Positions 54,545 to 55,838 of a DNA stretch of 56,967 nt are shown in pieces. The first letter of the stretch is position 1; the number at the start of each line of letters is the position of its first letter. Below the pieces are notes generated by a model that saw only the letters and a program-made list of their open reading frames with translations, made no database searches and was not told the origin of the DNA. A program made the position numbers and the translations under genes. The DNA comes from Kiritimatiellia bacterium (GTDB lineage Bacteria; Verrucomicrobiota; Kiritimatiellia; RFP12; UBA1067): assembly GCA_017628025.1 (NCBI GenBank), contig JAGBZX010000030.1:1-56967 (forward strand). Direction: 5' to 3'.

Positions 54545-54573
54545 ATTATATCATTTTACATTAACTCTTACAA
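54545..54573 (-). promoter_or_regulatory. Promoter of the gsp pseudopilin unit
   Basis: TTGTAA (54568-54573), 17 bases, TATAAT (54545-54550) in ATGATATAATAT. The -10 is 30 bases before the gspG ATG. It marks the boundary between the GC-rich rhs debris and the AT-rich backbone. Confidence 0.8.
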
Positions 54574-54654
54574 GGCACCCAAAAATTGTACAATTAAATG
54601 AGTCAAATCGGAAAGGCAAGGTGGCGAGGTGGCAAGGTGAAGAGAGGATAGTTT

Positions 54655-54699
54655 GAGTGAGGGAGTTGGGAGTGAGGGAGTTGGGAGTGAGGGAGTTTG
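54655..54699. repeat. 15-bp tandem repeat, three copies
   Basis: Three adjacent copies of GAGTGAGGGAGTTGG (the last ends GTTTG) at 54655, 54670 and 54685. In the rhs remnant frame they encode repeats of PTPSL, in the neighbouring frame TPNSL. Similar G-rich sequence (GGCAAGGTGGCGAGG) lies just to the left at 54616-54637. Confidence 0.85.
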
Positions 54700-54787
54700 T
54701 GGAGATGGTTTGCCATAGGATTGGACGGTTCTCGCCGTTGCAGGTGACGGACCAGATGCCAGTGGCGGTTTTGATAAGAGTTTGGTT

Positions 54788-54865
54788 GCGCGGCCTCTTG
54801 CGACCACTTCGCGGCTCAGTCGCTTCGCTCCTTCGGGCAACCCGACGCCTTTGGCGCGGGCGCAT
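54788..54865. repeat. Palindrome-rich insertion in the rhs remnant (78 bp, in frame)
   Basis: A GC-rich segment splits the Rhs peptide between FDDD and NQTL without changing that frame. It contains hairpins with 3-base loops: CGGG-CAA-CCCG (54835-54845) and CGCC-TTT-GGCG (54846-54856), and a longer GCGAC/GTCGC pair. It adds 26 mostly Arg/Pro/Ala/Ser residues unlike Rhs sequence. Borders are inferred from the Rhs reading frame. Confidence 0.55.
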
Positions 54866-54902
54866 ATCGTCGTCAAAATGGGGAATAAATCCTCCCGCAG
54901 AG

Positions 54903-54991
54903 ACGAAATGCACCGAAGAAGCTCTGCTTCGGAGGGTAGATTCGGCGTAGCCGAACCCGAAGGGTGCGCAAGCATCTGCGAGGCTGCAGAG
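54903..54991. repeat. Palindrome-rich insertion in the rhs remnant (about 89 bp, frame-shifting)
   Basis: Flanked by direct repeats GCAGAG (54897-54902 and 54986-54991), it contains GAAGC-TCT-GCTTC (54918-54930) and TTCGGC-GTA-GCCGAA (54941-54955). Removing one repeat plus the insert joins YTSIFNSA directly to GGFIPHFDDD in one frame. The pattern of short GC-rich arms with 3-base loops is shared with the segment at 54788-54865. Confidence 0.6.
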
Positions 54992-55361
54992 TTGAAGATT
55001 GAAGTATATTGGTTGAGGTTATTAGCCGCGTAGACGGAATTGGTGCCGCGCTCGGACGAGCTCTCGCGGTTGCCGATGTCGTCAAATTCGTATGCGTAGC
55101 GATAGTTGGTATTGACTGCTGCAACTGCATTGGTCAGTTCGCTCTTTTCGTTGTAGCCGTACGAGAGAGTGTCGTTCTGCGCGAATGCGCTGCCGGACTT
55201 AGCACACGTGATACGGCGACCAGCTACATCATAAGTGTAGTCGTATTGAGAAATGATGTTCGTCGGGAATGCGTTGCGGACCTGAAGCAGCTGATCATTG
55301 GCGTCATAGGCCCAAGATGCCGTTAGACCATTGGGATAGACCACCCGAACCATCAACTTCT

Positions 55362-55838
55362 TCACTGCGCGAGCTCCTTTCCGTCAATCAAAGCAAGTGC
55401 GCGTCTGGCAGAAAGGCGCAATACGGCAGGTATCGAAGGAATGCCGCTAATCGCCTCAAGCGCGGGACGGGACGATCTGACGCGGCGCTCACCGCAGAGC
55501 TGGACGGCCATCGCACGTGAGGCGGGATCGGAAGATGCGTCGGCGGTGCAAGCTGCGAGAAGATTCATTCTTTCTTCGGATTCAATCTGTGATGCAACGT
55601 GCCGCGCCACTGTAGGTGCTTGCAACATTTTGCGATGTGGGGGACTTGGAATTTTGCGATTGATTACAGGCGGCTGCAATTTTTCGACCTGAGACTGCGC
55701 CACGACATCATCGTCTGACGATCCACACCATTTGCCAGATACATACTGCAAAATAGAACTCACAACGAGCACATATTCGAAGACAAATATAACACAAAGC
55801 GCCAACCAGCAAGAAGCGATAAACCACTTTCTTTTCAC
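55362..55838 (-). CDS. Small membrane-anchored protein with HEAT-like C-terminus
   Basis: 158 aa from a GTG at 55838, which has GGGGA 6 bases upstream; a TTG at 55856 is possible but lacks a ribosome site. One N-terminal helix (FIASCWLALCVIFVFEYVLVV, about 5-25) is followed by a Pro-rich linker and a helical domain with HEAT-like repeats: DPASRAMAVQLCGERR and SIPAVLRLSARRALALI. It overlaps the rhs remnant by 4 bases (GTGA). GC-rich like the rhs parts. No function recognised; the context suggests it travels with rhs genes. Confidence 0.55.
   Translation of the reverse strand: MKRKWFIASCWLALCVIFVFEYVLVVSSILQYVSGKWCGSSDDDVVAQSQVEKLQPPVINRKIPSPPHRKMLQAPTVARHVASQIESEERMNLLAACTADASSDPASRAMAVQLCGERRVRSSRPALEAISGIPSIPAVLRLSARRALALIDGKELAQ

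Follow-up and report, generated by a model that had tools for sequence, protein, structure and literature searches.

A dispersed family of folded multi-hairpin DNA repeats in Kiritimatiellae, with copies inside protein-coding genes and a 5S rRNA gene

Two short palindrome-rich segments (inserts A and B) that interrupt a decayed rhs gene of a Kiritimatiellia bacterium belong to a dispersed family of folded DNA repeats, each about 68–90 bp long, that had not been described before. That the family was once mobile, and that its fold is conserved, is near certain. Both inserts lie in a contig of 56,967 nucleotides, here called the window (Table 1); no description of such an element family in Kiritimatiellae was found in the literature searched, mainly open-access papers.

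Both segments are present where the initial annotation of the window had placed them, and the open reading frames bear out its statement that one keeps the rhs frame and the other shifts it. Insert B, 78 bp long, is sense to rhs and is translated in ORF 54551–54913 as ...GGFIPHFDDD[MRPRQRRRVARRSEATEPRSGRKRPR]NQTLIKTATGIW..., while insert A is antisense to rhs and displaces the frame, with AANNLNQYTS read in ORF 54568–55365 and GGFIPHFDDD in ORF 54551–54913. Insert A consists of a closing stem and four hairpins, the central one being the TTCGGC-GTA-GCCGAA hairpin already singled out in the annotation, at 54941–54955. If the extra residues were an ordinary part of Rhs proteins they should be found in intact homologues; instead, an intact homologue from the same genus (L152) lacks insert B and reads NNLNQYMAVDDFTPQFDDDGNQALIKTATGIWSVTYNGENR, and the site itself is FDDDGNQALIKTATG in the intact homologue versus FDDD[26 aa]NQTLIKTATG in the window. 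The two inserts, one of each subtype, in opposite orientation and 42 bp apart, would have landed in an rhs sequence that was already decaying. Other repeats are found nearby: tandem 15-bp repeats (GAGTGAGGGAGTTGG) occupy 54655–54708, just past the rhs fragment, and 8-bp repeats of the GGCAAGGT type occupy 54615–54644.

Table 1. Coordinates of the rhs fragment, the two inserts and the adjoining repeats in the window.
Feature	Position	Strand	Basis
Degenerate rhs fragment, host of both inserts	54568..55365	minus	RHS_repeat PF05593, E 7.9e-7; same-genus intact homologues
Insert B, subtype-B hairpin element, 26 codons (MRPRQRRRVARRSEATEPRSGRKRPR), rhs frame kept	54788..54865	minus	R1 model, 85.8 bits, E 1e-16
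Insert A, subtype-A hairpin element, rhs frame shifted	54908..54983	plus	R2 model, 91.1 bits, E 5e-20
Left GCAGAG beside insert A	54897..54902	plus	Probably part of older 9-bp rhs repeat, not target-site duplication
Right GCAGAG beside insert A, same 9-bp repeat	54986..54991	plus	As left copy

The direct GCAGAG repeats reported on either side of insert A do exist, but judging from related sequences they most likely represent a 9-bp tandem repeat that was present before the insert. In an rhs fragment related to this one but free of insert A, the insert site reads GACTCTGTGACTCTGCGG, and at one site of an MmeI-type gene one relative (L257) carries the GCAGAG repeat alone, another (L255) the repeat plus the element. 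Because the repeat occurs without the element in both genes, it was read as the older feature, and a target-site duplication was rejected. Of 107 elements, 9 have the motif RCAGAG no more than 25 nt away, compared with 3.1% at random (p 0.006), and insert A would have landed inside such a repeat. The MmeI-type genes (L255–L266) are variable at this place: in the linker before YIMGNPPF, relatives differ in the in-frame repeats found at one site, which may be hairpin elements, GCAGAG 9-mers, CACAGAGGC repeats, CACAAAGGA/CACAAAGAG repeats, GGGAA-rich sequence or nothing.

Neither insert is a single-copy sequence, an outcome that would have spoken against a dispersed element. DNA searches of the draft genome (1.45 Mb in 45 contigs, 71% complete) returned further copies co-extensive with each insert, and at least eight copies were located on seven contigs, every one within 2.2 kb of a contig end; since repeats break assemblies, hence these positions, eight is a lower bound. 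Covariance models were built from 28 subtype-B copies (R1) and 20 subtype-A copies (R2). In the window R1 also finds insert A (28.5 bits, E 2.7e-4) and R2 finds insert B (25 bits, E 4e-4), so that A and B are regarded as two subtypes of one family; furthermore, a chimera of the subtypes (L045/L105) scores with both models. Homologues of insert B at the DNA level occur in 38 of the 58 genomes of the genus and those of an A-type copy in 28 of the 58, with R2 matching 25 of 39. At 86 dissimilar sites the flanks are unrelated; the dispersal proposed from the window alone is borne out by multiple copies and, as described below, by empty sites.

The lineage is indeed unrelated to Rickettsia, as had been stated: among 288 genomes sampled across the phylum, strong hits were confined to one family of Kiritimatiellae (genera g1, g2, g4 and g7), with one weak hit outside the family, elsewhere in the order. 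The named records matched by an A-type pattern were, two chance matches aside, MAGs of the Kiritimatiellae/Verrucomicrobia type from the gut, mostly that of ruminants and including one unclassified MAG, and the organism of the window is therefore probably a bacterium of this kind; the two exceptions, from Burkholderiales (L094 and L106), were discarded as chance coding matches lacking hairpins. A phage origin was likewise set aside, three patterns having no exact matches in viral contigs. Many projects, each with its own assemblies, have yielded MAGs that contain this family. Together with the covariation and empty sites presented below, this refutes the suspicion that the segments arose by assembly error or are GC-rich palindromes formed by chance; the ordinary folding energy of insert B and the position of all draft-genome copies near contig ends would fit such a reading, to which we attach practically no probability.

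To assess the genomic setting of the copies, a codon model was trained on long ORFs; with it 97 elements could be classified. Only four have coding DNA on both sides (three in frame, one shifted), versus about 34% of random points, about 33% of random points being in-frame coding; no coding signal was detected on either side of 69 elements (71%), versus 28% of random points. The family is depleted from coding DNA and its copies are mostly found between genes, and the picture of an element mainly of coding sequences, given by the two rhs inserts, does not hold. In-frame insertion into genes is nevertheless possible, as the annotation had supposed. In one gene (L119/L240) the element lies in frame within a macro domain (PF01661), in the conserved Gly-rich loop, where 12 relatives have MLGGGGVDGAIHR and one has MLG[28 aa]GGVDGAIHR; in another (L043) it lies in frame in the methyltransferase domain of an MmeI protein and is absent from the solved MmeI structure and from relatives. 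A subtype-B copy also occurs in frame near the N-terminus of an MNT nucleotidyltransferase-like ORF of the draft genome (KLWVFGSCARKEETPES; L002 1–198, G000:C30).

One copy is carried by a 5S rRNA gene of the draft genome (G000:C23:1-160 and G000:C8:30275-30415). Read backwards from the 3′ end of the 5S sense strand, the contig shows CGTGCGAGAGTAGGACGTCACCGGC, the element and AGTGCAGGACTCG, and the corresponding empty site in relatives is GGACTCG-CC-CGTGCGAGAG. Contigs C23 and C8 have a 141-nt end in common, probably an assembly overlap, and the gene runs off the contig, for which reason the Rfam 5S model gives no hit in the draft genome. Comparison with relatives, the check called for initially, yields clear empty sites for the macro gene, the MmeI gene and the 5S rRNA gene. 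The defined empty sites reveal no duplication, with zero to a few target bases missing, and direct repeats did not exceed permutation at the 86 sites.

These gene copies bear on whether the family is a coding-sequence palindromic element in the sense of the Rickettsia elements (RPEs), maintained mainly by in-frame translation. The copies in MmeI and macro domain proteins, the nearly identical element peptides of L006 and L008, which are different genes, and the copy in an RNA gene would all suit this explanation; against them stand the strong depletion from coding DNA and the frame-shifting of several gene copies (window insert A, L004), and we regard it as very unlikely. Inverted flanks of 5–6 nt were above permutation. 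Several elements (L023, L066, L091, L111, L068 and L086) are enclosed by the two arms of a longer inverted repeat, as though a hairpin loop had been their target. The possibility that paired inverted elements form the ends of a larger transposon was examined at L096, where two inverted copies lie 3 kb apart, and was dropped, no recognisable transposase being present among the intervening ORFs.

The description of the segments as hairpin-built stands in its essentials. Both subtypes comprise a closing stem of three pairs (ATKCG...CGMG), a first hairpin and two or three further hairpins, and the arms vary in sequence and length but remain complementary. The terminal K/M pair of the closing stem co-varies (G-C 57, T-A 18, other 11), and paired changes affect 11 of 19 pairs in subtype A and 13 of 19 in subtype B, counts reached in none of 500 shuffles and collapsing once the partners are slid. 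What does not stand out is the folding energy of a single copy, which for insert B is within chance (z about −0.1 as DNA and +0.1 as RNA) and for insert A is modest (z −1.4 to −2.3). Long-range pairs outside the hairpins co-vary too (columns 3–80 and 31–76 of A2), from which it follows that the constraint is on the fold of the whole strand and not on local palindromes alone. This is also what weighs against a reading in which arm complementarity is kept up by quasi-palindrome correction while the sequence spreads only by recombination or horizontal transfer of flanking DNA. Such a process would account for arms that differ yet remain complementary, for the L045/L105 chimera and for L007, which holds insert B together with rhs flanks in common with the window; it leaves unexplained the co-varying pairs outside the arms, and recombination of flanks cannot give clean edges at many unrelated sites, so that we consider it distinctly improbable.

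The loops are also far from random. A set of 70 non-redundant copies contains 140 triloop hairpins whose arms measure 4 bp or more, compared with 25 in shuffles, and of these triloops, read on one strand, 96 are GNA and 3 TNC, with 120 closed by C-G; some loops of subtype A are non-GNA (TTT, TCT, TAC). The sequences d(C-GNA-G) and d(C-GNNA-G), of which d(GCGAAGC) and d(GCGAAAGC) are the types, form extraordinarily stable DNA mini-hairpins. The GNA preference points to selection on single-stranded DNA, and an RNA alternative is retained beside it: a mobile element that acts or spreads as RNA, either through a folded transcript that is copied back or as a signal for mRNA processing or stability. 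The compensatory changes would fit RNA pairing, GAAA and GCAA tetraloops, which would also suit RNA, do occur, the copy in the 5S rRNA gene would be transcribed, and the orientation of the elements follows the main coding strand in 30 of 41 loci. We nonetheless hold an RNA element to be unlikely, since most loops are GNA triloops, which confer stability on DNA but no particular stability on RNA, copies antisense to genes occur (window insert A) and Rfam gave no match in the window or at nine loci.

Movement as folded single-stranded DNA, preferred here, is suggested by the lack of target duplication, by the strand that bears the GNA loops and by a copy number that tracks Y1 transposase genes. 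In 32 of 41 loci of about 20 kb (p 4e-4), and in 57 of 91 shorter loci (p 0.02), the strand with the GNA loops is also the richer in G. In most bacteria the G-rich strand is the lagging-strand template. As the G-rich and main coding strands coincide (r 0.78), the orientation bias could reflect genes or transcription and not replication. Y1_Tnp genes are common in the genus, and their number correlates with that of the elements after adjustment for the size and completeness of the genomes (partial r 0.60, p 5e-5), a correlation that has no control family and ignores phylogeny. None of 30 Y1_Tnp loci is flanked by the element, two having only weak partial matches of 30 nt, and a flanking Y1 transposase gene was accordingly discarded. 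Several of these loci (L172, L174 and others) contain RAYT-type genes ringed by palindromes of their own (GACGCGGC..., GACGCGACA...), apparently a separate REP system.

From this pattern we infer a single-stranded intermediate and an enzyme acting on it. One strand of the element would fold into a closing stem around three or four short hairpins whose loops, mostly GNA triloops or else GNNA tetraloops, have C-G as the closing pair, the GNA strand being exposed on the lagging-strand template before folding. IS200/IS605 elements act at this template (PMC6006769). An enzyme acting in trans, most plausibly a Y1/HUH transposase of the TnpA(REP) type, would then cut and paste the folded strand without duplicating the target; most copies would survive between genes and a few within proteins, in frame and at loops that tolerate them, or in a variable arm of 5S rRNA. 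We put the chance that the family is a non-autonomous mobile element of this kind, moving as folded single-stranded DNA and possibly mobilised in trans by Y1/HUH enzymes, at about even.

These observations imply that palindromic micro-elements have come to insert into genes not only in Rickettsia and Wolbachia, where the phenomenon is best known, but also, with an architecture of their own, in a phylum unrelated to them. Moreover, GNA loops, the absence of target duplication and the orientation bias together make movement as folded single-stranded DNA a testable proposition, and the genus offers natural experiments, such as the differing repeats at one MmeI site and a macro gene interrupted in its conserved Gly-rich loop.

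Among known systems, the non-autonomous small repeats of bacteria grouped as MITEs (Correia/NEMIS, RUP, ERIC) are bounded by terminal inverted repeats, usually with a duplication of the target site (PMC2229807), whereas the present element has no duplication and no terminal repeats beyond the 3-bp closing stem. The RHE and DHE of fungal and sponge mitochondria, compared here by description, are apparently mobile multi-hairpin units, free of flanking duplication in fungi, that are tolerated within genes and in the variable regions of rRNA (PMC2800124); unlike our family, they belong to organelle genomes, have fewer hairpins and share no known sequence relation with it. REPs are palindromes of 20–40 bp that mostly bear a GTAG or CGTC tag (PMC3733652), and the IS200/IS605 relatives of TnpA-REP target the lagging-strand template (PMC6006769). 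REP/REPIN with their Y1 transposases (TnpA-REP, RAYT) are likewise short extragenic hairpins without target duplication; here copy number tracks Y1 genes and the element is predominantly extragenic (71% without coding signal versus 28% at random), but REPs flank their transposase, whereas here a four-hairpin unit of 68–90 bp does not flank the 30 Y1 genes examined. RPEs are found in frame in genes, between genes and also in tmRNA and RNase P RNA (PMC2229807). The likeness to Rickettsia drawn initially is sound in so far as RPEs and the Wolbachia coding palindromes are also small dispersed palindromic elements with intergenic, in-frame and RNA-gene copies (5S rRNA in our case); it breaks down in that RPEs measure 105–146 bp, end in 12-bp inverted repeats and form long stem-loops, as opposed to 68–90 bp, a 3-bp closing stem and short GNA hairpins in mostly extragenic copies of another phylum that are strongly depleted from coding DNA, so that length, fold and setting separate the two. 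The element therefore resembles RPEs, REPs and the mitochondrial hairpin elements, departs from RPE, REP/RAYT and MITE each in a defining feature and may, as a tentative assignment that we rate somewhat below even, represent a new class of single-stranded DNA mobile micro-element, with a multi-hairpin d(C-GNA-G) fold, spread across one gut-bacterial family and carried in proteins and 5S rRNA.
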